In this document: positions 48,376 through 62,048 of the stretch, piece by piece
How the letters are laid out: each line of letters starts with the position of its first letter
Position numbering within the stretch: position 1 is the first letter of the stretch
NCBI GenBank assembly: GCA_937872925.1
Contig: CALMUT010000149.1
Location: 1 to 64,000, forward strand
Direction of reading: 5' to 3'
Source: an uncultured Myxococcales bacterium
GTDB lineage: Bacteria > Myxococcota_A > Polyangia > Polyangiales > Polyangiaceae
Length of the DNA stretch: 64,000 nucleotides
Notes under the pieces: model-generated
Told to the model about the DNA's origin: nothing
Seen by the model: the letters and a program-made list of their open reading frames with translations, nothing else
Database searches by the model: none
Translations under genes and position numbers: made by a program

Positions 48376-49092
48376 CTAGGGCGCTACTTCGAACTTGGCC
48401 CCCGCCAGCGCAGCGTCGCGCAGCGCTACGTTGGCTTCTGCGCAGTAGTCGATCATGACGTTGACTCGACAAGTAGACGAAAGATTGCGTGTGGAATGCG
48501 GACGCATGTTGTCGATTTCGTACACCCCTCCGGTCTGCATGAAGAACGTTTCGTCTCCGATGCTGAATTCGCAAAGTTCTGCCTCGGTCAGCGGGACGTG
48601 CAAGTGGTGACTGAAACGCTTCCAGTCCCGATTGTGTCCCATGTCTTTGTGGCGCGGCACACTGCCACCGGGCGCCAAGATAGCCAGGACCAGTAGATGA
48701 AGAAGCCCTGGGCCGTAGTGGGCCCGGCAAGCCTCTGTGATGCACTCCAACTCTGCGCGCAGTTCGCGCTCACGATCCAACCCCGCGGGCAACGGCAGGG
48801 CCCAGGGCGAAGCCGGAGACTCCGCGTTCACGATACCAAGTTGCAGATACCCGGTCGGGCGCATCTTGCGATATGCAATGTCCGGCGGGCGCTCTTCGCA
48901 GTCAATGTACTCGCTTCGCCGCCGCACCTCGCGCCACAGCGAGCTGTCCAGATCGTCTATCAGAGGACCAAGGTCCTGACGGACAATCTCCGCAAGCGTG
49001 TCGACACGGAGCGAAGCGATGCGCAGGTGACTGTGCTCGAGACGCATGTGTTTCCACGTACCATAGCAGATCCAAGCGTCGCTCGGTTTCAC
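48376..49092 (-). CDS. Aspartyl/asparaginyl beta-hydroxylase family Fe(II)/2-oxoglutarate enzyme
   Basis: A 238-residue protein with GTG start that overlaps the stop of the upstream gene (GTGA). It carries the family ligand set: His148 and Asp150 in PRHKDMGHN, His199 in NMRPHSTRN, with the 2-oxoglutarate Arg209 in CRVNVMIDY. Members hydroxylate Asp or Asn beta-carbons in proteins or amino acids. It ends the eight-gene minus-strand array. The Asp/Asn/Cys-rich repeats of the lipoprotein two genes upstream are a possible substrate, as eukaryotic AspH acts on EGF-like repeats; this is inference. Confidence 0.82.
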   Translation of the reverse strand: MKPSDAWICYGTWKHMRLEHSHLRIASLRVDTLAEIVRQDLGPLIDDLDSSLWREVRRRSEYIDCEERPPDIAYRKMRPTGYLQLGIVNAESPASPWALPLPAGLDRERELRAELECITEACRAHYGPGLLHLLVLAILAPGGSVPRHKDMGHNRDWKRFSHHLHVPLTEAELCEFSIGDETFFMQTGGVYEIDNMRPHSTRNLSSTCRVNVMIDYCAEANVALRDAALAGAKFEVAP

Positions 49093-50321
49093 GGGGGCCG
49101 ACGGCTCGGCCCGAGGATCCCAGCGCCGGAAATCTGAAACGGCCGCTCGAGCGTCGCGCTGTCGACCAGCCGACCGCGAACGAAGCGCAGCATAAGAGTC
49201 ACGTTGCGGTAGCAGCGACTCGTCGCGCGCTGGTAGGTGAAAAGCGCGACGTCTTTGCCAAGCGCGACAAGACTCAGCACGCGACGTATGCCAGTAAACG
49301 TAGTGTGCATCTGCGCAAGGACGTTGCGACCAAGTTGCTGCCGATTCAAAGCGTGGCGCGAATGCGACGCCACGGTGGACGTCAGAAACCCAAAGGACGT
49401 GACCAGGTAGGACGCAGCGCCCGCATCAATCGGGTCGACAAACACGTCCCAATGGTGAAATGCTTGCCGTTCTAGTGCTTCAAAGTAGGTGGCTGCTTCT
49501 GCGTCAGTTTGCCAGCGCGTTTGCGCCACCTGCGTGGGCGCACCTGGCGGGTCGGCCACCTGAAAGCGTCGAATGCCCACGGCCTTGGCGTGGGTCGGCG
49601 GGTGCAAGTCGAGGCTGGTCAGAGAACACCGCAAGAGCCGCGCGAGATCGGGCGTCCCGAAGCCTCCACCCAGATCGAAGCGTGCCTCCGCGTCGCGAGG
49701 CAGCCGCGCGAGACCGCTCTCAGGCACTTCTGCCAACCAATCGTACATGCCAATGACGGTGTTGGTCATACCGCCAAGGGCCTTGAGCAGCACGCCGGCG
49801 TCGAGTTTTCGCCGTGCCCACCCCAGCAGGCGAGCGTCAGCGCCGAAGAGACTCCGCAGACGCTGCTCCAGCTGCGCCCGCGAGTGCAAGCTGCTTGGCG
49901 CGTCGGGCTCGAGATCGAAAAGCGCGTGCTGAACGAACACCCGCAAGTACGGGATCCGCGGCTCTTGGGCGTTGAGCATGTGTAGGGTGCGCCGTGTGCT
50001 GCCGAAGTCGCGTTCATACAGCTCGAACACGATTTCCATCACAGCGTCGAAGTCACGCAACCATGAGCCGCCCATGGGGCCGGTCGGCGCCTCGGCCGTG
50101 ATGTAGTCCTGCCAGGCCGAAGGCCCAAGTTGCAGCCGCGGCACCGCCCAGGGCTGCCGCGTGGCAAGCTCGCTGACCAACTCGGTCGCCTGTGCCAAGC
50201 TCACATCGTCGTCGATGACGAGCGCCGAGAGCTCCTGCAGAATCTGTCGATTGGGCCGTTTGCTGCCCCGTGCCATCGCCTCGAGGATCTCTACGAGGCG
50301 ATCCCTCGAAGCTGTGGTCAC
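49089..50321 (-). CDS. Methyltransferase-like protein
   Basis: A 410-residue soluble protein with GTG start 50321 overlapping the previous stop (GTGA). The N-terminal 220 residues are helical without known motif. Then RFDLGGGFGTPDLARLL is followed by SLDLHPP, which reads like motifs I and II of class I S-adenosylmethionine methyltransferases. Downstream DVFVDPIDAGAASYLV occupies the post-I region. No substrate motif is seen. It sits between the MopE-repeat lipoprotein and the beta-hydroxylase-type gene and is translationally coupled to both. Confidence 0.55.
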   Translation of the reverse strand: MTTASRDRLVEILEAMARGSKRPNRQILQELSALVIDDDVSLAQATELVSELATRQPWAVPRLQLGPSAWQDYITAEAPTGPMGGSWLRDFDAVMEIVFELYERDFGSTRRTLHMLNAQEPRIPYLRVFVQHALFDLEPDAPSSLHSRAQLEQRLRSLFGADARLLGWARRKLDAGVLLKALGGMTNTVIGMYDWLAEVPESGLARLPRDAEARFDLGGGFGTPDLARLLRCSLTSLDLHPPTHAKAVGIRRFQVADPPGAPTQVAQTRWQTDAEAATYFEALERQAFHHWDVFVDPIDAGAASYLVTSFGFLTSTVASHSRHALNRQQLGRNVLAQMHTTFTGIRRVLSLVALGKDVALFTYQRATSRCYRNVTLMLRFVRGRLVDSATLERPFQISGAGILGPSRRPP

Positions 50322-52909
50322 GCCGCGCGCTTCGAGCGCCAGCGCAGTTCGGCAGCTTGCCCCCACGCCTTGTCACGCGGACCGTAGGAGCGCGTGTTGT
50401 ACTCCGCCAAGTAGCGCATGTGCGCCGCATCTTGCGGGTAGCGTCCTTCCGCGCCATTGCCGTAGCGCGCCATGCCGTGGAACGGCAGCGGCCCCACTTG
50501 AGACGTGAGATCCGTCGCCGCAGCTCCCGGGAGCGTGCGCGGTTTGAACACGAGGTCCGTGTGCAAGAACAAGGAGCGTTGCAGTCCAGCGCCCGGCGCA
50601 CGGATCCCGTCGAACTCGAGCACAACAGCGTCGCCGCGACGCATGACCACAAAGCGGTCATCGGACTGCCCAAGCAACGGCGTCACGTCGCCGTAGCGGG
50701 TAAACCTGCCGTAGGTGCGCTGCTCTTGCCTGATCTCTCCGCGGCCGTCGTCGATGGCCATTCGGGGCCGCGCCGGATCCCCTGCGTAGGGCAGAGTCGG
50801 GGCTCCCGAGAAGTTCAACTCGGCGTCCCCTGCACTGACGTCGTAGCGATCGAACTCCAGTGCTGGCGCTTCGCAGAGACGCACACGGTCGATGAACCAC
50901 ATGGTCTGCCCATCACCGGGCGCGCCGGTGTGGAGCCGAAGCTCCCACCGACCCGTCGGGGTCTCTACCTGGGACAGGTCGAAGACCAAACCTTTGCGGT
51001 CACCGCGGGGCGCACCGAGCGGCATCACTTCGCGCCAGCTGCCGTCGCGCTGTTTGACCTCCAGCCGCGCCTTCTGTCCTGCGCCAACGCTGTCGCCCCG
51101 ATTCAGACGCAAGCGCCAGCCCTCGATCACGAGCCTGGCGTGCTGCCTCGATCGAACTGCGCCAAAATCCAGCTCGTAGAAGTTGTCCTGGGCAACCTCG
51201 TGGCGCACGGCGCGGTCGTCTTGGCGCGAGATCTCGTCCCGCACATCGTGGCGCCCCATCCAGCTGGCATGCTCAGGCGCGCGCAGCGCCGCACTCGGCA
51301 GCACGACGAAGTCCCACTCGGGGGCGTCCTCGAAACTGCGAAGTGAAATCGCGCTCGAAGAAAACACCTCCGACCCTTCGGCATGTTCCACGACCGTCAG
51401 ATGCGCCTCGTCCAGGTACACAATCTCGTCCTCCGCAGCCAGCAGCTTGGCCCGGGCACGTCCGGCATCGACTCGCGCTTGGTCCAGCCGCACCCACATG
51501 GGCATGAAGTCCACGCGTTTGCCGAGGGCGCCGGGGTCTAGGTGTTTCTTGCGCCCCACCAAGGCCACACCACCAACGGTGCTCTCGTAGCGGAAACAAG
51601 TACCGTCGTCGGACAGCACGTAGGGGCAGCATGCCGGCCACTCATCGATCTGGCCGTTGCAGTTGTCATCCTTGCCGTTGCAAAGCTCGCCGGTGGGGAA
51701 CTTGGTCTGGAGGCACTTCAGGGAACCACCCGAGCAACTCAGGTTACTCTTAGCGCACTCTCCGAGCTTGCCCGCGACGGTGCACGCTGCCCCACCGCCG
51801 GGATTGCCCTCGTCGATGGAGTTGTTGCAATTATCGTCCTTGCCGTTGCAGACCTCGGTCTTGGGGAACACCGTTTGCGTGCACGACAGGCTGCCGTTGG
51901 TGCAATTCAATACGCCGGTGCGGCACTCACCGAAGAGCGACGTATTGGTACAACCCGCGCCGCCACCAGGGTTACCTTCGTCCGTAGACCCGTTGCAGTT
52001 GTCGTCCTTGTTATTGCAGATCTCGGTCTTCGAGAAGACCGTCTGCTGGCAGGAGATAGAGCCGCTGACACATTTCTGTATGCCGTTCGAACACTCCCCC
52101 TGCATGCCCGTGTTGCAATTGGCACCGCCGCCGGGATCACCGTCATCTACGGTGCCGTCGCAGTCGTCGTCGATGTTGTTGCACTGCTCGGACTTTGGCT
52201 GCTGGTTTTGCACGCATACGATCGCGCCGTTCTGACATGTGTCGGTACCGGTTGCGCAAATGCCTTGCTTACCCGTGCTGCAAGTGCCGCCACCGTCCGG
52301 GTTGCCGTTGTCCTTCAGCCCATCGCAGTCGTCGTCGATGTTGTTGCACGCTTCGGTCTGCGGCGTGACCTCACCGGCGCAGGTACTGCCCCAGGTTCCG
52401 TTTTCGCAGGTTTGGGTGCCACCCTTGCAGATACCGGTGTTCTCGGTGCCTTTGGCTCCGCCGTAGCAGGGGCGCGTCTCGTCGTTGGTACACGCACAAC
52501 CCTCGTCTGCCGTGCCGTTGCAGTTGTTGTCCAGGGTGTCGCATAGCTCCGTGCTGCCAGGCAGCGTCTCGCCGGTACACGGCGTCCACTTGCCTCCGCT
52601 GCACGTCGTCGTGCCGTCCTTGCACTCACCAATGCCCTGGGTCGCAGGTGGCCCAGTGTAGCAGGCCTGGGTCTCGTTCTCCGTGCAGCCGGTGGGTGCG
52701 TCCGGGCCCGCGTCGCCAACGCTCCCCCCGGTACCGGCGCCGCCCGTTCCGCCGCCGTTTCCGCTTCCGCCCGAGCCAGCACTCGCTCCGCTGCCGGAAG
52801 TGCCCCCGGGCCCACCGCCATCTTCACCGCTGCCGCCGCAACCGTACATGACAACGAAGCCAGAAATGGAAAGCACGCCCAGACGTATCAAGCTCGTGAT
52901 GCAACGCAT
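50318..52909 (-). CDS. MopE-repeat lipoprotein with ASPIC/UnbV-protein-like C-terminal region
   Basis: An 863-residue protein starting at ATG 52909. The lipobox is MYGC, followed by a Gly/Ser linker. Residues 75-390 contain about seven MopE-type metal-binding repeats, each with C-N-x-x-D-D-x-C-N/D-G and often DEGNPGGG (CNNIDDDCDG, CNGKDDNCNG). The C-terminal 470 residues lack such repeats; DDRFVVMRRGDAVVLEFDG and PLPFHGMARYGNG resemble the region that follows ASPIC/UnbV domains in other secreted proteins. It is probably a metal-binding surface protein. It is coupled by GTGA to the methyltransferase-like gene, and lies 209 bases after the cupin gene. Confidence 0.78.
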   Translation of the reverse strand: MRCITSLIRLGVLSISGFVVMYGCGGSGEDGGGPGGTSGSGASAGSGGSGNGGGTGGAGTGGSVGDAGPDAPTGCTENETQACYTGPPATQGIGECKDGTTTCSGGKWTPCTGETLPGSTELCDTLDNNCNGTADEGCACTNDETRPCYGGAKGTENTGICKGGTQTCENGTWGSTCAGEVTPQTEACNNIDDDCDGLKDNGNPDGGGTCSTGKQGICATGTDTCQNGAIVCVQNQQPKSEQCNNIDDDCDGTVDDGDPGGGANCNTGMQGECSNGIQKCVSGSISCQQTVFSKTEICNNKDDNCNGSTDEGNPGGGAGCTNTSLFGECRTGVLNCTNGSLSCTQTVFPKTEVCNGKDDNCNNSIDEGNPGGGAACTVAGKLGECAKSNLSCSGGSLKCLQTKFPTGELCNGKDDNCNGQIDEWPACCPYVLSDDGTCFRYESTVGGVALVGRKKHLDPGALGKRVDFMPMWVRLDQARVDAGRARAKLLAAEDEIVYLDEAHLTVVEHAEGSEVFSSSAISLRSFEDAPEWDFVVLPSAALRAPEHASWMGRHDVRDEISRQDDRAVRHEVAQDNFYELDFGAVRSRQHARLVIEGWRLRLNRGDSVGAGQKARLEVKQRDGSWREVMPLGAPRGDRKGLVFDLSQVETPTGRWELRLHTGAPGDGQTMWFIDRVRLCEAPALEFDRYDVSAGDAELNFSGAPTLPYAGDPARPRMAIDDGRGEIRQEQRTYGRFTRYGDVTPLLGQSDDRFVVMRRGDAVVLEFDGIRAPGAGLQRSLFLHTDLVFKPRTLPGAAATDLTSQVGPLPFHGMARYGNGAEGRYPQDAAHMRYLAEYNTRSYGPRDKAWGQAAELRWRSKRAA

Positions 52910-53087
52910 GAAGGAGGTCTCCCTGTTCGGAAGTGTTCCACGCGGCAACCAACTCGTAAATTGATCTAAGACGAAACTACACCGCTCACCTTTACCCACA
53001 TTGGTGGCGGAGGGCGTGACGCCGACGAGGGTAGTGAACTGTTCGGCCGCGCTCGTATCAGCCGCGCAAGCATCGGCCGCGCACGCC

Positions 53088-53147
53088 GGTGCGGTTCAAC
53101 CCCGCACGTAGGTGCGATTCAACCCCGCACGTAGGTGCGGTTCAACA
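53088..53147. repeat. 23-base tandem duplication over the cupin gene end
   Basis: GGTGCGGTTCAACCCCGCAC plus GTA is present at 53088-53110, again at 53111-53133 with one change, and in part at 53134-53147. The second and third copies encode the last residues and the stop of the cupin gene; the first lies beyond the stop. It looks like a recent slippage duplication of a gene end. Confidence 0.8.
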
Positions 53148-53781
53148 TCGGGTGCACGCCGTCCGTCGGCCCCCAGTCAGAATCCGGGTGGTAGGCGATG
53201 ACGTTCATGACGTCCGCCGCAGTGCGAAAGGCGTGGAACTCGTGGCTTTCCAGTAGAAAGACGCAGGCGGATTCCAGAGGCTCCTCCCAGGCCGTGCCCG
53301 CCCCGGGCCCGTAGGCAACGCCCCGGCCGCTGGACACCACACCCAGGCGAATGCTGGGGTGGGAGTGCACGCTTTGGGTGATGCCGGCGGGGAAGTGGAG
53401 GTGGTTGAGCACAGGGTCCCCAAGCCGCGGCGGCATCACGAGCACACTATCCGTGCACCCGTCGATGTAGCTCAAGCGACCCGCGCTTTCGATCCGCCCG
53501 GCCGCGGCCATCGCTAAGAAGCCGAGTCGCTCGATCACCACGACGCGTCCGGTTGCGTCGAGCTCCAGGCCGCCGGGTATGCAGAAGAACGCGCCCGCAC
53601 TCGCCTCCAGGTTGAGCCCAGCGCCGCCGACGCGCGCGCGCCCCTCCACCACGAAGCCGTAGTGCGTCGAAGTGGAGCTTTCGAATCGCTTCGCACCCAC
53701 CACAACTTCGAGACGCGACGGATACATCGTCGTCGTCGCGTCCAGTGTTGCGCCTGCCTCCGGATCTCGTATCAGCTTCAT
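53119..53781 (-). CDS. Cupin-family protein
   Basis: A 220-residue protein with two cupin-like halves. The second half keeps the metal-binding histidines in HLHFPAGITQSVHSHPSIRL and the following Gly-rich turn; the final HEFHAFRT and YHPDSDWGPTDGVHP add more histidines. The first half (about 20-95) has the fold but not the ligands. Cupins of this kind are isomerases, dioxygenases or sugar-modifying enzymes. It follows the unknown 246-residue gene by eight bases. Confidence 0.7.
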   Translation of the reverse strand: MKLIRDPEAGATLDATTTMYPSRLEVVVGAKRFESSTSTHYGFVVEGRARVGGAGLNLEASAGAFFCIPGGLELDATGRVVVIERLGFLAMAAAGRIESAGRLSYIDGCTDSVLVMPPRLGDPVLNHLHFPAGITQSVHSHPSIRLGVVSSGRGVAYGPGAGTAWEEPLESACVFLLESHEFHAFRTAADVMNVIAYHPDSDWGPTDGVHPMLNRTYVRG

Positions 53782-53789
53782 GACTCTCT

Positions 53790-54530
53790 CTACCCGAACC
53801 CTGCGTCTTCGGCCTGGTCGCCGATCATCTCATACACCCAGCGCAAGAGCGGCCCAGCCGCCAGCGCGGACAACTCCAGATAGCAGCCTTTCGCCAGCAA
53901 GGAGCGATCCCGTTGTGGAACGTTCTCACCGAACTTCTGTGCTGCACCCCTGCGCAAACTCAAGCGTAGCCGAAAGCCCCAGGACAGGGTCATGCCCAGA
54001 TCGACGATCTCCGCGCCCTCCGGCGGCAGCGCTTGCTGCACTTGATCCGCCAGGCCATAGCCGGCGGCCGATGCGTCGCGTACCAACAAGAACCGCGTCT
54101 CGAAGCCAGAGTTGACCTGGCGCAAGAGTGCGGACCACACGTGGTCGGGATAGCCGACGGTGACCGGGGCGACCTCGATCTTGCGATGGAAACCGTTGAG
54201 CACGAAGGCTTGGCACAGCTCCCGATCCGCGAAGACGAGCGCGCGGGGTACGGAGTACTCCGAAACATCCGCGGGGATCGCCGACAGATCTGCATGCGTT
54301 GGTAGTTGCTCGGGGCGCACCATGCCCGGGATGGGTTGGTGTCTTTCCTCCCACCGCCCCAGTTCGGCGATCAACTCCGAGCGTGCCGAAACAGGATCGC
54401 CTGCAGCGGGCAGCAGCCCGGCTCGCTCGAGCTCGTACAACAGCTGCGCGCGAGTGAAGACAAAGCGCCCACCCTCCGACACGTCATCCACGGCGCGTTC
54501 CATGTCGCTGGCTGCAATGTCGCCAATCAT
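53790..54530 (-). CDS. Unknown protein linked to asparagine-synthetase-like gene
   Basis: A 246-residue soluble protein starting at ATG 54530, overlapping the previous stop (ATGA). It has helix-rich N-terminal and C-terminal parts and a central alpha/beta segment (SVPRALVFADRELCQAF, TRFLLVRDASAAGYGLADQV). No signal peptide, no known motif. The overlap suggests a complex with the synthetase-like enzyme, possibly as substrate carrier or partner. I do not recognise a family. Confidence 0.6.
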   Translation of the reverse strand: MIGDIAASDMERAVDDVSEGGRFVFTRAQLLYELERAGLLPAAGDPVSARSELIAELGRWEERHQPIPGMVRPEQLPTHADLSAIPADVSEYSVPRALVFADRELCQAFVLNGFHRKIEVAPVTVGYPDHVWSALLRQVNSGFETRFLLVRDASAAGYGLADQVQQALPPEGAEIVDLGMTLSWGFRLRLSLRRGAAQKFGENVPQRDRSLLAKGCYLELSALAAGPLLRWVYEMIGDQAEDAGFG

Positions 54531-56290
54531 GTGGGATGCGCTCCGTCCACGTAGACGCGGTGCCACAGCTCCACCGCCAGGATCATCCACAGCAGCTCCC
54601 CAGTGCGATCCCGCCCGATGTGCCCGAGCGGCAGCTCGCCCGCCAGCAGGTTGTCGACGAATGCTTGTTGGAACAAGCCGCGCTCCCGCGCCCGCGCGCT
54701 GCCGAGTATCTCGCGAGCGTAGCGGCGCAGCGGTGTCTTGCGGAACCAGTGATTGAGCGGCACGCCCATGCCGGCCTTCTTCCGATACACCACTGGGTGT
54801 GGCAGCAGATCGTCCACCGCCCGCTTGAACAAGTACTTTTCCACGTCGCCTTTGCGCTTCAGCCCCGCGGGCACCGTGAACGAGTGCTCGGCCAAGCGGC
54901 GGTCGAACAGTGGCGACTGCGCCTCCACGCCGTTGGGCGTCAACATCTTGTCGACCTTCACCAGGATGTTCTGCCCGCCCTTGAGGCGGATGTTCACGTG
55001 CATCAGCCGGTTCAAGTAACTGTCGAAGCGCGACGACTCCAGGGTCTCGCGCACGTGCTCAGTCAGCGCGCTAACGCCACCACTCGACTCCAAAAACTCC
55101 GGTGTATACAGGTCGCCGATGTAGTCGAAAAACTTGTGATACGAGGCCAAGTACGCCGTGGTGCGGTCGTAGTTGCCCAAGTATCCGTACCACTCGCCCA
55201 AGATCATGAACTTGTTCTTGGGGCCGCCAAAGAGCGGGTCGCCGCCTTCGCCATTGAAGACGACGCTGCTGTGCCGCGAGGCTTCCCGCGCAAGCAAGTA
55301 GTTCGGCACCGTGATGCAATCACACAGCGGGTCGTCCAACGCCCACATGATTCGCGGCAGTTCGTCGAGGAACTGCTCCGGATGCACATCAAAGACCTGA
55401 TGCTCGAGCTCATGCTCCACGCTCACCATGGTGGCGTACAGCAGCTCGTTGGGCTGACCATAACCGAAGCTGCAGGACAGACACAGCGGAGGGCGTCCAA
55501 GCTCGGACATGATGGCGACGACGGCGCTGGAATCCACGCCACCGGAAAGAAACGCCGTGACGGGACCTTCAGCGGGCAAGCGACGCTTCACCGCCTCGAA
55601 GAGCAACGTGCGCATTTGCTCGCGCAGCTCGTCTTCGCTCGCATCGGAAATGCGCTCGCTAAGCTCCCAATAGCGAACGACCCGTGGCTCGGTCTCGCCC
55701 GCCCGAAGCTCTAAGCGGCAGCCCGGCTCCAGCTCCTGCACACCCCGAAAGGCCGTGCGCCGACCGGGGATGAACGAATACACCAACAGTCGGCTCAGCG
55801 CGCTTGGATCGGCTTCGACGACGAACGCTGGATGCGCGAGGAACGCTTTGATCTCGCTGGCGAAGAGCAGCGTGCCGGCAATGCTTGGCGCAAAGTACAA
55901 AGGCTTTTCCCCGAGCGGATCGCGGACGACATGCAACGTGTCGTCCACGATGGCCGCGAGACCGAAGGCGCCGTCCAAGCGCTCGAAGATCTCGGATCCG
56001 TGCCTGGCAAGCAGCTCTGCCACCAGCGCGGCGTCGGATGCACCGGCAGGAGCGTCCGAGAGCAGCCCGCGGATCTCGTCGCGGTTGAACAAGTGCCCGT
56101 CCATGACGCAAAGCACCCGGCCGTCTGCGCTGCACGCAACGGCCGATCCCGCTGTGCGCCGTCGCTCGGCCAGCGCAAACGCGCCGCGCGTGTCTCTAGC
56201 CTCGAACTCGCCGCGGTGTTTCAGTCGCGCGGAAAGCTCCTGAATCAACTCAGGCGACGCTGGCCCCGCATGCCCAGCGATGCCGCCCAC
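54527..56290 (-). CDS. Asparagine-synthetase-like ATP-dependent enzyme lacking the glutaminase cysteine
   Basis: A 587-residue homologue of AsnB. The start is GTG 56290, nine bases after GGGAGG; an in-frame TAG one codon upstream rules out a longer N-terminus. The protein starts M-G-G-I where active class II amidotransferases have M-C-G-I, so the nucleophile is absent. The glutamine-binding NGEIYN block is also changed (DGHLFN). The synthetase domain is intact: ATP pyrophosphatase loop SGGVDSS at 249-255, and GEGGDPLFGG later. This is the pattern of beta-lactam synthetase and lasso-peptide cyclase, which adenylate a carboxylate and use an amine instead of glutamine-derived ammonia. Coupled to the next gene by ATGA. 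Confidence 0.85.
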   Translation of the reverse strand: MGGIAGHAGPASPELIQELSARLKHRGEFEARDTRGAFALAERRRTAGSAVACSADGRVLCVMDGHLFNRDEIRGLLSDAPAGASDAALVAELLARHGSEIFERLDGAFGLAAIVDDTLHVVRDPLGEKPLYFAPSIAGTLLFASEIKAFLAHPAFVVEADPSALSRLLVYSFIPGRRTAFRGVQELEPGCRLELRAGETEPRVVRYWELSERISDASEDELREQMRTLLFEAVKRRLPAEGPVTAFLSGGVDSSAVVAIMSELGRPPLCLSCSFGYGQPNELLYATMVSVEHELEHQVFDVHPEQFLDELPRIMWALDDPLCDCITVPNYLLAREASRHSSVVFNGEGGDPLFGGPKNKFMILGEWYGYLGNYDRTTAYLASYHKFFDYIGDLYTPEFLESSGGVSALTEHVRETLESSRFDSYLNRLMHVNIRLKGGQNILVKVDKMLTPNGVEAQSPLFDRRLAEHSFTVPAGLKRKGDVEKYLFKRAVDDLLPHPVVYRKKAGMGVPLNHWFRKTPLRRYAREILGSARARERGLFQQAFVDNLLAGELPLGHIGRDRTGELLWMILAVELWHRVYVDGAHPT

Positions 56291-56293
56291 GGA

Positions 56294-57280
56294 CTAGAAC
56301 CTCCCGCTGACGACCACGTTGGCACCACCCAAGGTCGGGCTGACGAAGGCTTCGGTCTTGGGCGGCGCTTTCTTCTTCGAGCCGCCGAACAAGAGCAACG
56401 CCGCACCGGTGGCGAGGCCCACGCCGCCCACTACCAGACCAACGTTCGCGATCGTGTCGAGCTGTCGCCCGCCGTCGATGTCGTCGCGCTTTTCTTCCGG
56501 GCAAGGTCCACCCTTGCAGTCGTCTTCTAAAGACTTGAAGCGCTGGTCAGCCAAGTAGCCGGCAACACCGAAGGTCGCGAGCCCCGCCGCACCCACACCC
56601 AAAGCAACGTACGCCAGAACCGGTGGTCCGGCGGTGGCGCCGTCGTCGGCGGTAGCGTCCGTGTTCGGCTCGGTGGAAGTGTCCACGGCCGCGGCGCTGC
56701 CTTTCGTGCCCGCCTCCAAGCTGACCGCGACAGTAGACAAGGAGCCGCCCGCGACCTCCAGGGTGCGCGCAAAGTCCTTGTGACCTGGCGCGGACGCATG
56801 CACCTCGACGCTACCCGGCTGCACCGCGACGGGCTCCCCGATGCGTGCGGGCTGCAGTTCCAATGTGCCGAGCCGGACCTGGAGTCCCTCAGGCGGATCC
56901 GCGACGGCGACCACGATACGAGCAACCTTGGACTCCAATGCGGCGCGCTCCGCCGCCGCGGCACTGCGCGTTTCGGCATAGCGCTCGTCTTCTTTGGCTT
57001 TGGCGTCTGCGATGCGGATCGCGGACGAAAACGCCTCGTAGGATTCCGGCAGGCGATCGAGCTTGCGTAGACAGCGCGCCACGTACAGCTGGGCGTTTGG
57101 GCTCTCTGTAGCCTGCGCGAGTTTCTCGAACTTTGGCAGGGCATCTGCGCAGCGATTGGCTTGATACAGCTCCTGCGCCTCTTTGAATACCGTGCGGGCT
57201 TCGCCCGGACTCATTTTCTGAGCCGCCGCCGTGGGCGCAACGACAAGCGCCGCTAGCAGTGCAACAACGCAGACGCGCAT
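56294..57280 (-). CDS. TPR/PEGA-like exported membrane protein
   Basis: A 328-residue protein with a signal peptide (VVALLAALVVAPTAAAQ), a TPR-like helical part (FKEAQELYQANRCADALPKF, then AQLYVARCLRKLDRLPES), a charged coiled segment, a PEGA-like beta domain (about 120-195) and two transmembrane helices near the C-terminus. It begins nine bases after the stop of the kinase gene and ends three bases before the AsnB-like start, in the same frame as that gene with a single TAG between. It may relay the kinase signal or act as scaffold. Confidence 0.68.
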   Translation of the reverse strand: MRVCVVALLAALVVAPTAAAQKMSPGEARTVFKEAQELYQANRCADALPKFEKLAQATESPNAQLYVARCLRKLDRLPESYEAFSSAIRIADAKAKEDERYAETRSAAAAERAALESKVARIVVAVADPPEGLQVRLGTLELQPARIGEPVAVQPGSVEVHASAPGHKDFARTLEVAGGSLSTVAVSLEAGTKGSAAAVDTSTEPNTDATADDGATAGPPVLAYVALGVGAAGLATFGVAGYLADQRFKSLEDDCKGGPCPEEKRDDIDGGRQLDTIANVGLVVGGVGLATGAALLLFGGSKKKAPPKTEAFVSPTLGGANVVVSGRF

Positions 57281-57289
57281 AGCAACCGT

Positions 57290-58876
57290 TTATAGCCGAT
57301 CTGGCTCGAACTCGCCGCCAGACTTGGGCTTCGGCGTTGGCTTCGCGGTTGGCTTCGCGGCTGGCGGCCGTGGAGCTGGGGGCTTGCGCGTCCAGGTTGG
57401 CTTGTTTGCGGCGGTAGTCTGCTTGGTAGTTGCCGGCGCCTCGGTAGCCGCATCCGGAGCGGTGGCCAGTGGCGCGGCGCTATCTTCGGGCGCGACCATT
57501 GGCTCTGCGCTCTCCTCTGGCGTCGGCTCCGTGGTTGGCTCAGGCGCGGGCGACGGCGTCGCGGCGGCCGTAGGCGCTGCGGCGGCGGGCTCCGATAATG
57601 CTGGCTGCCGCCACACGACGGCCCACACCGCAATGGACGCCAAGATGAGCAGGAACAAACCGCCGCCAACCGCCGCGCCAACCCCAATGGCTGAAGTGCG
57701 CCGCGGCGCGGTGGGCGTGGCCACTGGGCCGACCGCACTGGCGCCGGTACCCGTGGAAACGGGCATGGCGTTGATCAGCGATCCAACCCCGCTCGAGACA
57801 TCGCGCGCCACCGTGGGCGCTTGGTCATCCTCGAAGCCCGCGGGGGGCAGCACCGGATCCGAATGTACGCCCGAAGGCGGCTGGGCGGCGTGGGGCGAGC
57901 TGGCGAAGTCCGCGGGGACCGAACCGGCGCCACCGTGCTCTTCGGGCACGATCAACAGCCCGTGTCGACGCAGAGTCTCCTCCACGAAGCGTCCAACCGC
58001 ACGCGGACTCGCCGGATGCACGCCGGATTTTTCAGCGGCCTCCTCCAGCGCGTCGGCAAACGCCGCCGCGGTTTGAAAACGACTGCGGCTGTCACGCAGC
58101 GCCTGAGCGCACACCGCATCAATGGCAGACGGGATGTTCGGATCGACCTGCGCCGGGGTTGCGCGCGGTCCTGCCATCACCGCTGCAACGAGCGCGCCGT
58201 CGCTGGGCGCTTTGAACAGACGCTGCCCAGTGAGCAGCTCCCACAGCACGACGCCAATGGCGTACACGTCGCTGCGCCGGTCCAGCTCTTCGGCACGCAG
58301 TTGCTCCGGCGACATGTACGGCACTTTGCCCTTCACTTGGCTGCCGCGCGTGCTGGAGATCCGCGCCTCGGCGCGAGCCACGCCAAAGTCCGTGATCCGA
58401 CTCACGCCGTCGATCCCCACTAGGATGTTCTGCGGGGACACGTCGCGATGGACCAAACCAAGCGAGCGACCGTCGGAACCGCGTAGCTCGTGGGCCGCGT
58501 GCAAACCGGCAAGGGCGTCCAGGACGATGCGTAGCGTGACCTGCATCGGCAGCCGCACCTTGTCCTTTAGCGACGCCTTCATCAGGATGTTGGCCGCGCT
58601 GCCCTCGATGTATTCCATCACCAGGGCCAGGCCGTCTTGGCTCTGCTGGATGTCAATGGTCGCCACCACGTTGGGATGGCGAATGCCCGCGGCCAGGCGA
58701 GCCTCGTCCAAGAACATGTTGACGAAATCGGGATCCGCCGCGATGTGCGGGTGCATCACCTTGATCGCAACTAGGCGCTGGAATCCACCTGCACCGACGA
58801 CCCGCCCCAGGTGCACAGTGGCCATGCCTCCCGATGCGATCGGGCAGATGAGCTCGTAACGGCCAAATTGCTGCAT
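57290..58876 (-). CDS. Receptor-type Ser/Thr protein kinase
   Basis: A 528-residue protein starting at ATG 58876. Kinase motifs are complete: Gly-loop ASGGMATVHLG, Lys39, HRDVSPQN with Asp145, ITDFGVA with Asp163, YMSPEQ and DVYAIGVVLWELL. A transmembrane helix lies at about 405-430 (GGGLFLLILASIAVWAVVW), then a Pro/Ala/Thr/Lys-rich tail that would be periplasmic. It is first in the eight-gene array, so it probably responds to an outside cue and modifies a product of the array or its regulator. Confidence 0.9.
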   Translation of the reverse strand: MQQFGRYELICPIASGGMATVHLGRVVGAGGFQRLVAIKVMHPHIAADPDFVNMFLDEARLAAGIRHPNVVATIDIQQSQDGLALVMEYIEGSAANILMKASLKDKVRLPMQVTLRIVLDALAGLHAAHELRGSDGRSLGLVHRDVSPQNILVGIDGVSRITDFGVARAEARISSTRGSQVKGKVPYMSPEQLRAEELDRRSDVYAIGVVLWELLTGQRLFKAPSDGALVAAVMAGPRATPAQVDPNIPSAIDAVCAQALRDSRSRFQTAAAFADALEEAAEKSGVHPASPRAVGRFVEETLRRHGLLIVPEEHGGAGSVPADFASSPHAAQPPSGVHSDPVLPPAGFEDDQAPTVARDVSSGVGSLINAMPVSTGTGASAVGPVATPTAPRRTSAIGVGAAVGGGLFLLILASIAVWAVVWRQPALSEPAAAAPTAAATPSPAPEPTTEPTPEESAEPMVAPEDSAAPLATAPDAATEAPATTKQTTAANKPTWTRKPPAPRPPAAKPTAKPTPKPKSGGEFEPDRL

Positions 58877-58987
58877 TGCGCTGCTCGTGGGATCCGCTGA
58901 GAAGGATACACGCTGCGTGTGAAGCGGGCCACGGAACGCCAGAGCAGCGATGACGCAGCGCAGTGTGCTAGGCTCGCCGAACGAGTG

Positions 58988-59875
58988 ATGCTGCGAAGCC
59001 TGCTCTTTGCGCTGCTGGCCGTGGGAATGACGGCCGGGTGCAGCCACGATTGGGACAAGCTCTCACCCGCTGAGGGCGGCGACGCATCCCCAGGCGGCGC
59101 GGGCGCCGGTGGATCCGGGGGCAGCGGTGGCGCTTCAGGCAGTGGTGGCGCCGCGGGCCAGGCTGGGGATTCGGGCACGGGCGGCACGGCGTCCTGTTCC
59201 GATCCGTCGATGATTGCGGTGCCTGGCAGCACGGGCGGCTTCTATTGCGTGGATCGCACGGAAGTGACGAACACCGCCTACGAAGGCTTTCTGGCCGGGA
59301 CGCCGGATCTCACGGGCCAACCGGCAGAATGTGCATGGAACACAGACCTGACGCCATCCGGTGGCTGGCCGCCGGCCGTGGGCACCGGGGATCGACCCGT
59401 GAGCTTCGTGGACTTCTGCGACGCGACGGTGTTTTGCGCCACGGCCGGCAAACGCCTGTGCGGAGCGGTGGGCGGCGGCGCCCTGGGCTTCGGCTCCTTC
59501 GCCGATGCGGCAGCCAGCGAGTGGTACAACGCCTGCAGTGAGAACGGAAAGCGCGCGTACCCCTACGGCCAGACCTATGACGGCACGGCCTGCAACGGCA
59601 CGGACTACGGCGTGACCGGTCCGGTCAAGACGGGCAGCGCGCCCAAATGCGAAGGCGGCTTCAGCGGGCTTCTAGACTTGAGCGGCAACGTATTCGAGTG
59701 GGAAAACTCCTGCGCGGACACGGCCGGTGCTACGGATAAATGCCGCATCCGCGGCGGCGGCTACAACAGCAACAGTGCCAATCTCAAATGCGATGTTGCC
59801 GCGGACGCAGAGCGATCCACGGCGACAGTCACCATCGGATTCCGCTGCTGTGCAGACGCAGTGATTTCCAACTAG
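58988..59875 (+). CDS. Lipoprotein with formylglycine-generating-enzyme-like (SUMF1) domain
   Basis: A 295-residue protein; ATG 58988 follows a GTG in frame. The lipobox is TAGC and a Gly/Ser linker leads to the domain at about 75. FGE-sulfatase features are FYCVDRTEVTNTAYEGFLAG, ATAGKRLCG, ASEWYNACS, LLDLSGNVFEWENSC, RGGGY and GFRCC. These are typical of secreted SUMF1-fold proteins that bind or modify proteins; whether it is a true formylglycine-generating enzyme is unclear. It is divergent from the kinase array. Confidence 0.85.
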   Translation: MLRSLLFALLAVGMTAGCSHDWDKLSPAEGGDASPGGAGAGGSGGSGGASGSGGAAGQAGDSGTGGTASCSDPSMIAVPGSTGGFYCVDRTEVTNTAYEGFLAGTPDLTGQPAECAWNTDLTPSGGWPPAVGTGDRPVSFVDFCDATVFCATAGKRLCGAVGGGALGFGSFADAAASEWYNACSENGKRAYPYGQTYDGTACNGTDYGVTGPVKTGSAPKCEGGFSGLLDLSGNVFEWENSCADTAGATDKCRIRGGGYNSNSANLKCDVAADAERSTATVTIGFRCCADAVISN

Positions 59876-60966: not shown

Positions 60967-61386
60967 ATGACAGCCCAACAACTTTTTGCAGTCTTCGGCA
61001 CGGTCGTCGCGTTGCACTGCGTGGTGATGGCCGGTTTGACCGGCACGCTGCGCGTCATGCGCAAACAGTGGATCAATCCCGAAGACGCCAAGATGAACAA
61101 GGGCGAGCAGGTGGAGCAAGACCACCCCGACGTCGCCCGCGCCAAGCGCGCGCACTACAACTTGTTAGAAAACGCCGTGCCGTTCTTTCTCGTCGGCTAC
61201 CTCTACGCCGCCGTCGCGCCCAACGCGACCGCCGCACTGGTCTACTACGCGACCTTCGCCGGCACGCGCATCCTGCACAGCGTGTTTTACCTCTGGGGTC
61301 GCCAGCCGTTTCGCACGGCGATGTTCGCCATCGGCGTGATGTGCATCGTCGGCATGGCCACACAAGTCATCCGCACGGCGGTGTGA
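60967..61386 (+). CDS. MAPEG-family membrane protein
   Basis: A 139-residue protein with four transmembrane spans. The family core is RAKRAHYNLLENAVPFFLVGYLY, here seen as RAHYNLLENAVPFF, the glutathione-binding Glu/Asn/Arg stretch of microsomal glutathione transferases and prostaglandin-E-synthase-like proteins. Two more family-like segments are FAGTRILHSVFYL and the last helix. It may conjugate glutathione or act on lipid peroxides in the membrane. Confidence 0.8.
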   Translation: MTAQQLFAVFGTVVALHCVVMAGLTGTLRVMRKQWINPEDAKMNKGEQVEQDHPDVARAKRAHYNLLENAVPFFLVGYLYAAVAPNATAALVYYATFAGTRILHSVFYLWGRQPFRTAMFAIGVMCIVGMATQVIRTAV

Positions 61387-61481
61387 GCGGTGTGAGCGGG
61401 CGCAGGCGGGCGCAGGCGGGCCCTGGGGCAGCTCGCGCAGGAAGATCCGGGGTTGCGCCCACGCTATCCTTCTATCTGCCA

Positions 61482-62048
61482 ATGACTTCGCCCCAGCGCC
61501 ACCACCGCTACAGCTACGAGGAGTACCTCGCCTACGAGCAGGACTCCGGGCTCAAGCATGGTTTCGAGGACGGGGAGATCTTCGCGATGCCTGGCGGATC
61601 GCGGCGTCACAACGCGCTCGCTTTGCGGGTAGGAGCCGCAGTGGACGCGGGCCGACGCCCGGGATGCATTGCCTTTCAGTCGGACCAAAAGGTGCGGGTA
61701 CTGGCCACCGGCAAGGCCACGTATCCCGACGTGTCGCTGGTCTGCGCTCCCATCGAGGGTGACCCGGCCGATCCTTCCGGGAACACGGTCACCAATCCGA
61801 CGTTGCTGGTCGAGGTGTTGTCGCCGTCCACCGAAGAGGAGGACCGCGGCAACAAGTGGCGGCACTACCAACTCATCCCGTCGCTGCAGGAATACGTGCT
61901 CGTGAGCCAGGGGCCACCGCGTGTGGAGTACTTCCGCCGCCTGCCGACTGGCGGGTGGGAATATCACGACTTCTCAGAAGGCACAGTACGCCTCGAGAGC
62001 GGCGGCACGCTGGATCTCAGCGCCTTGTACGCCGACCTACCGGTGTGA
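61482..62048 (+). CDS. Uma2-family PD-(D/E)xK nuclease-fold protein
   Basis: A 188-residue protein beginning at ATG 61482, shorter than the raw open frame. It has the Uma2/DUF820 features: YSYEEYLAYEQDSGLKHGF, the active-site Asp in YPDVSLVC, the Glu in LLVEVLSPST, and the RGNKWRHYQLIPSLQEYVLV block. Members are a widespread set of putative endonucleases of unclear biology. It stands alone. Confidence 0.88.
   Translation: MTSPQRHHRYSYEEYLAYEQDSGLKHGFEDGEIFAMPGGSRRHNALALRVGAAVDAGRRPGCIAFQSDQKVRVLATGKATYPDVSLVCAPIEGDPADPSGNTVTNPTLLVEVLSPSTEEEDRGNKWRHYQLIPSLQEYVLVSQGPPRVEYFRRLPTGGWEYHDFSEGTVRLESGGTLDLSALYADLPV

Follow-up and report, generated by a model that had tools for sequence, protein, structure and literature searches.

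The window analysed here, a stretch of 64,000 nucleotides on contig CALMUT010000149.1 of an uncultured Myxococcales bacterium, carries between positions 48376 and 58876 an array of eight open reading frames (ORFs), all on the minus strand, which includes an AsnB-like amide synthetase and a 246-residue partner protein, here called U. The initial annotation had described these genes from their letters and translations, and every one of them is present as described, with junctions that are exact: in order a 9-base gap, a 3-base gap, an ATGA overlap, an 8-base gap, a 209-base gap and two GTGA overlaps (Table 1). The array is composed of a four-gene core (AsnB, U, a cupin and a lipoprotein with MopE repeats) and of two flanking pairs, because gene order in relatives separates the flanking genes from the core. 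Its conserved part is AsnB-U-cupin, to which the lipoprotein is added in Myxococcota.

The search for U covered 145 genomes of the order; a profile search then extended it to 331 Myxococcota genomes. The four core genes are consecutive in five genomes: the present one, G064 from the same genus, Nannocystaceae G229, Ga0077550 and Enhygromyxa salina SWB007. A sixth genome, G405, has both halves of the block on separate contigs. These loci support the earlier suggestion that an AsnB without glutaminase, an unknown protein, a cupin and a MopE-repeat lipoprotein belong together. In contrast, the proposal that all eight genes form a single signalling and modification pathway, to which the common strand and the very short junctions had given plausibility, is highly improbable. 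In G064 the orthologues of the kinase (65%) and of the TPR protein (56%) lie side by side, but on a different contig from the core, and in no related locus seen do the methyltransferase-like and hydroxylase genes stand beside it. Gene order in relatives thus largely rules out an eight-gene unit.

The flanking genes have their own distributions. All 98 family genomes searched contain relatives of the TPR protein, often about 20 each. G064 lacks the methyltransferase-like gene, which in Nannocystaceae lies elsewhere, adjoining lepA in two genomes; its co-occurrence with the block in G229, G405, Ga0077550 and E. salina is possibly plain descent, since Nannocystaceae share the lepA locus (at least two genomes). 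These relatives near lepA (40%; L204:7439-8671 and L206:5716-6936) may occupy a housekeeping location. For the beta-hydroxylase, a search of 189 genomes gave matches of about 30% identity but no close relative. The kinase had been called a sensor kinase; a kinase it is, but of the Hanks type and not a classical sensor kinase.

Table 1. Features of the array in window coordinates, listed in the direction of transcription
Feature	Coordinates	Strand	Remarks
Ser/Thr protein kinase	57290..58876	-	PF00069, 2.6e-32; C-terminal hydrophobic segment; flanking, not core-conserved
TPR-type protein, member of a very large paralogous family	56294..57280	-	flanking, not core-conserved
AsnB-like ATP-dependent amide synthetase, type P	54527..56290	-	Asn_synthase PF00733, 6e-70; GATase_7
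U, 246-residue partner protein, predicted pseudo-Toprim (topoisomerase VI A/Spo11-type)	53790..54530	-	C-terminus flexible, ...EDAGFG
Codons for the C-terminal Phe-Gly of U	53793..53798	-	stop codon 53790-53792
Cupin of the module	53119..53781	-	Pfam cupin match weak, 1e-4
Gap between cupin and lipoprotein genes, 209 bases	52910..53118	-	same gene pair elsewhere has shorter gaps
Lipoprotein-like MopE-repeat protein	50318..52909	-	Cu-binding_MopE, 3e-25, six repeats; conserved C-terminal domain of ~430 amino acids
S-adenosylmethionine (SAM)-methyltransferase-like protein	49089..50321	-	accessory; no family match
Asp/Asn beta-hydroxylase	48376..49092	-	accessory; PF05118, Asp_Arg_Hydrox, 2e-7

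With the cupin as bait, 84,980 species genomes were searched and the best 80 loci examined. In many of these AsnB, U and cupin occur together, and the module is found in seven phyla, its taxa being Myxococcota, Planctomycetota, Verrucomicrobiota, Lentisphaerota, Bacteroidota (Saprospiraceae), Acidobacteriota and Methylococcales. Three arrangements can be distinguished: asnB-U-cupin-lipoprotein with a short U (I), which is the window's type and was seen in Myxococcota alone; cupin-U-asnB with a longer U that carries a zinc ribbon and hydrophobic segments (II); and asnB(Q)-U-asnB(P) plus a cupin (III), P and Q being the two enzyme types described below. Of the 331 Myxococcota genomes, 14 have the cupin, 23 have U and 13 have both, counts that include genomes with cupin and U on different contigs; the hypergeometric P values of 2e-16, and of 4e-14 without this genus, overstate independence, since sequences related by descent do not count as independent trials. 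Genes in the related loci were called mechanically, so that some starts are uncertain, and L-numbered loci taken from metagenome assemblies may contain breaks (G405, L129); G229 and L054 are loci of one genome, as are G405, L055 and L145. An apparent cupin-U fusion in L129 was not counted, as the ORF spans a run of N. The cupin search gave no match in phages and one distant, unannotated match in plasmids.

Enzymes of the AsnB fold, such as asparagine synthetase, beta-lactam synthetase and lasso cyclase, adenylate carboxylates and hand them to amines. The enzyme of the window begins MGGIAG and lacks Cys2, the glutaminase nucleophile, as had been noted from its translation, and its pyrophosphate loop, FLSGGVDSS, is intact (the ATP-PPase motif SGGxDS). 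Throughout the module Cys2 (MCG) is missing wherever the N-terminus is clear, and SGGxDS is kept in nearly all enzymes. The canonical GEGxDE..GGY loop is likewise replaced in nearly all, either by NGEGGDPxFGGPKN (type P, to which the window's loop, NGEGGDPLFGGPKN, belongs) or by GEGGDQLFG(G/S)W (type Q). In a tree of 70 sequences one supported branch (97/81) separates the two types, and the window enzyme clusters with the other myxobacterial type-I enzymes (100/100). An ordinary asparagine synthase can be rejected, because Cys2 is missing and the score against TIGR01536 (glutamine-dependent asparagine synthase) is 256.7 bits at a cut-off of 267.1; so can lasso peptide biosynthesis, with 116.9 bits against the cyclase model NF033535 at a cut-off of 525. 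The asparagine synthetase-like PesC, TsrC and ScdTA work on peptide C-termini (PMC13060819). By comparison with PesC, the substrate loop of the module enzymes probably holds the positions of the substrate-binding Glu and Tyr.

U measures 246-380 amino acids across the module. An AlphaFold2 model from a 29-sequence alignment is confident (pLDDT 90.4, pTM 0.87) except for the last three residues, which are disordered. Residues 92-240 of the model correspond to a Toprim domain, with Z 9.5 over 142 residues to topoisomerase VI A (1d3y), 6.9 to Spo11 and 6.0 to JetD; a profile match to 2zbk (E 2e-4) and weak Pfam hits agree with this fold. The 246-residue U of the window and its methyltransferase-like neighbour in the array have no Pfam or NCBIfam family match. 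The Toprim Glu and DxD (alignment columns 101 and 152-154) are not retained: nearly all U have another residue in place of the second Asp of DxD, the acid of the first strand is not conserved, and Asn112, His115, Pro128, Asp177 and Gly179 are near-invariant instead. It is therefore very doubtful that U works on DNA as a nuclease, topoisomerase or defence protein regulated by AsnB and cupin, even though the fold resembles topoisomerase VI A, Spo11, JetD and a Corynebacterium glutamicum nuclease; moreover, PADLOC-DB 2.0.0, queried with six window proteins and two longer U, gave no defence match. Judging from the model, a non-catalytic scaffold with a Toprim fold of the topoisomerase VI A/Spo11 type is the best description of U.

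U also has a recurrent end. Forty-two distinct U proteins terminate in Phe-Gly or, in Methylococcales, in Tyr-Gly (FG or YG), and the tails before this motif cannot be aligned. Conservation concerns the amino acids and the chain end itself, because every Gly codon (GGC 15, GGA 10, GGT 9, GGG 8; n = 42) and all three stop codons are used, as are both codons each of Phe and Tyr, and an ATGA overlap at the end of U occurs in only 6 of the 42. This diversity of codons and stops excludes a cause at the nucleotide level, such as a ribosome site or gene overlap. The ending is associated with the presence of AsnB: it is found in 40 of 47 U near AsnB and in 2 of 8 elsewhere (Fisher p 0.001), and of these two, one is followed by the end of its contig, and in the genome of the other, G124, a type-P AsnB lies on another contig. 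Six genomes have a tailless U, and among the AsnB-like matches found in them there is no type-P AsnB (other AsnB types or none). As a background, an FG or YG end was seen in 49 of 1484 called genes, most of them evidently U proteins themselves, and the C-termini of cupin and AsnB show no comparable conservation.

Some loci depart from this picture in their own ways. In E. salina (L057:12187-16768) a type-I block lies directly beside a type-III asnB-U-asnB set, the U of which has no FG end, and in a Verrucomicrobia metagenome-assembled genome (L087:2953-6099) three tandem U end in GF-M or GY-M with extra residues. L147, L148 and L149, all from one myxobacterial family, encode U-like proteins that have neither AsnB nor tail and adjoin Ser/Thr kinases.

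The cupin was named as such in the initial annotation, and a Pfam match exists, although a weak one. Its conserved residues (YIDGC(T/S)D, HxHPS, H.F.T) probably form a three-His metal site; neither NCBIfam nor PADLOC has an entry for the cupin or for U. The 3' end of the cupin gene is repeated as three tandem copies of 23 bases (53077-53146), which extend into the 209-base gap, and an Rfam scan of the window gave no match. The lipoprotein gene comes directly after the cupin gene in all five intact myxobacterial blocks, and the MopE repeats named in the initial annotation agree with the family match. Its C-terminal domain gives weak beta-sandwich/CBM32-like matches (Z ~8, near background) in a model of pLDDT 76, from which no function is drawn. 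All six lipoproteins of myxobacterial blocks (50318-52909 and L053-L057) end in Ala-Ala with otherwise differing tails, the frame of L053 being possibly wrong.

How these components may act together can be outlined as follows. U would be a ribosomally made scaffold, a catalytically degenerate Toprim protein of the topoisomerase VI A type, and its disordered C-terminus, Phe/Tyr-Gly with a free carboxylate, would be the site at which the glutaminase-dead AsnB works. AsnB would adenylate the glycine carboxylate and couple it, through amide formation, to an amine of other origin than its own glutaminase. The cupin is probably a metal enzyme and would perform a metal-dependent step before or after this reaction. 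That AsnB activates the terminal carboxylate of U is suggested by the regular place of a glutaminase-dead AsnB next to a protein whose C-terminal glycine is fixed and free; in support, the tail is the disordered part of a model that is confident elsewhere, and PesC, TsrC and ScdTA provide a precedent. The gene association in seven phyla, the conservation of the tail, the loss of the glutaminase, the distinct substrate loops and the fold of U are its observed basis, and we infer from them that the tail is a substrate rather than a docking site only; the cupin's chemistry and the amine are conjectural, as any role of the lipoprotein would be. We give this reading of the module a probability of about 0.4. 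Still more tentative is its fuller form, in which the Phe/Tyr-Gly of a pseudo-topoisomerase is activated by a dedicated AsnB-type ligase and joined to an amine, and the cupin completes the product: an ATP-dependent ligation or tailoring of a protein C-terminus in at least seven phyla, unrelated to ubiquitin-like, Pup and lasso systems.

Several observations weigh against a substrate role of the tail. Seven U near AsnB lack FG or YG: two second copies in Methylococcales, each beside a YG-ending copy, the three tandem copies of L087, the U of L117, and one of two Enhygromyxa U, which adjoins a complete FG-type module. A length of 246-380 amino acids is unusual for the precursor of a ribosomally synthesised and post-translationally modified peptide (RiPP), and the module shows no recurrent dedicated protease or exporter, which a RiPP would need. 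The Glu-Tyr pair important in PesC is apparently replaced (E..GGY to P..GGP or Q..GGW, by an inferred mapping), and therefore the substrate may differ from that of PesC. Finally, the cupin-like family also pairs with a short ATP-PPase in loci without U. This ATP-PPase (~357 amino acids, SGG(I/L)DST) stands with the same cupin family in L059, L070, L073, L074 and L089, and further such loci are L090, L094, L095, L104 and L106; the hosts are Saprospiraceae/Lewinella, Duganella, Paraburkholderia and others. It is probably a second system that combines a cupin with AsnB-like chemistry.

Short C-terminal motifs commonly serve as docking signals, and the main alternative, a somewhat doubtful one in our view, is that the FG tail serves as a docking peptide or plug with which an unmodified U recruits or gates AsnB, perhaps by insertion into the vacated glutaminase site, while AsnB and cupin produce a diffusible small molecule. 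The confident folded domain of U, the zinc ribbon and hydrophobic segments of its longer relatives, which would suit a scaffold, and the AsnB substrate loop, unlike the canonical one, fit this explanation. Docking motifs usually tolerate following residues, yet the stop codon comes directly after Gly in 42 proteins; nor did the loci read reveal any carrier protein, exporter, nonribosomal peptide synthetase or polyketide synthase gene that recurs beside the module. Since -Phe-Gly is also a typical substrate end in animal peptide amidation, the cupin, which retains histidines able to bind metal, might instead cleave the C-terminal glycine oxidatively to leave a Phe- or Tyr-amide, as peptidylglycine amidating enzymes do, with AsnB acting elsewhere on U or on another partner. 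We consider this improbable: we know of no cupin that performs such a reaction, and in G081 and G042, where U has an FG tail, no cupin was found.

Beyond the array, a protein with a sulfatase-modifying-factor (FGE) domain is encoded at 58919-59875 as the divergent neighbour of the kinase, followed by a MAPEG protein (60967-61386) and a Uma2-family protein (61068-62048).

If AsnB does work on the tail of U, the module would represent a widespread bacterial activation of protein C-termini by the asparagine-synthetase fold, with a retired topoisomerase as carrier. Should the tail be a docking motif instead, the persistence of two C-terminal residues in seven phyla, at the end of tails that otherwise resist alignment, still gives a precise and testable handle on an uncharacterised system, whose hosts are bacteria with large genomes: myxobacteria, planctomycetes, Saprospiraceae and Methylococcales.

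The initial annotation knew of no described system with this composition, and no matching one was found in the open-access literature searched (subscription literature being outside its scope), in which no description of AsnB with a cupin, in Planctomycetes or otherwise, or of AsnB with Toprim/Spo11 turned up. The novelty of the system lies in its composition and its position outside the families compared, not in demonstrated chemistry. Closest are PesC (nitrilobacillin), TsrC and ScdTA, which likewise combine an adenylating enzyme of the AsnB fold with a gene-encoded substrate of conserved C-terminus. PesC, however, takes glutamine or ammonia and a short precursor ending in R(V/T)DN, whereas the module has no glutaminase Cys, a different substrate loop, a cupin, and a folded, Toprim-like partner ending in (F/Y)G. 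The lasso cyclase (McjC type, NF033535) is also an AsnB homologue that forms an amide on a ribosomal product, but the eight genes include neither a short precursor nor a match to PqqD/RRE or to a transglutaminase-type protease. With topoisomerase VI A, Spo11 and JetD-MksG, U shares the Toprim fold; it differs from them in its degenerate catalytic acids, its AsnB and cupin neighbours, its FG tail and, in the longer forms, the zinc ribbon and hydrophobic segments. Pup and ubiquitin-like conjugation resemble the module by analogy only: here too a fixed C-terminal residue of a small protein would be activated, but by enzymes, and on a fold, that are unrelated to theirs.

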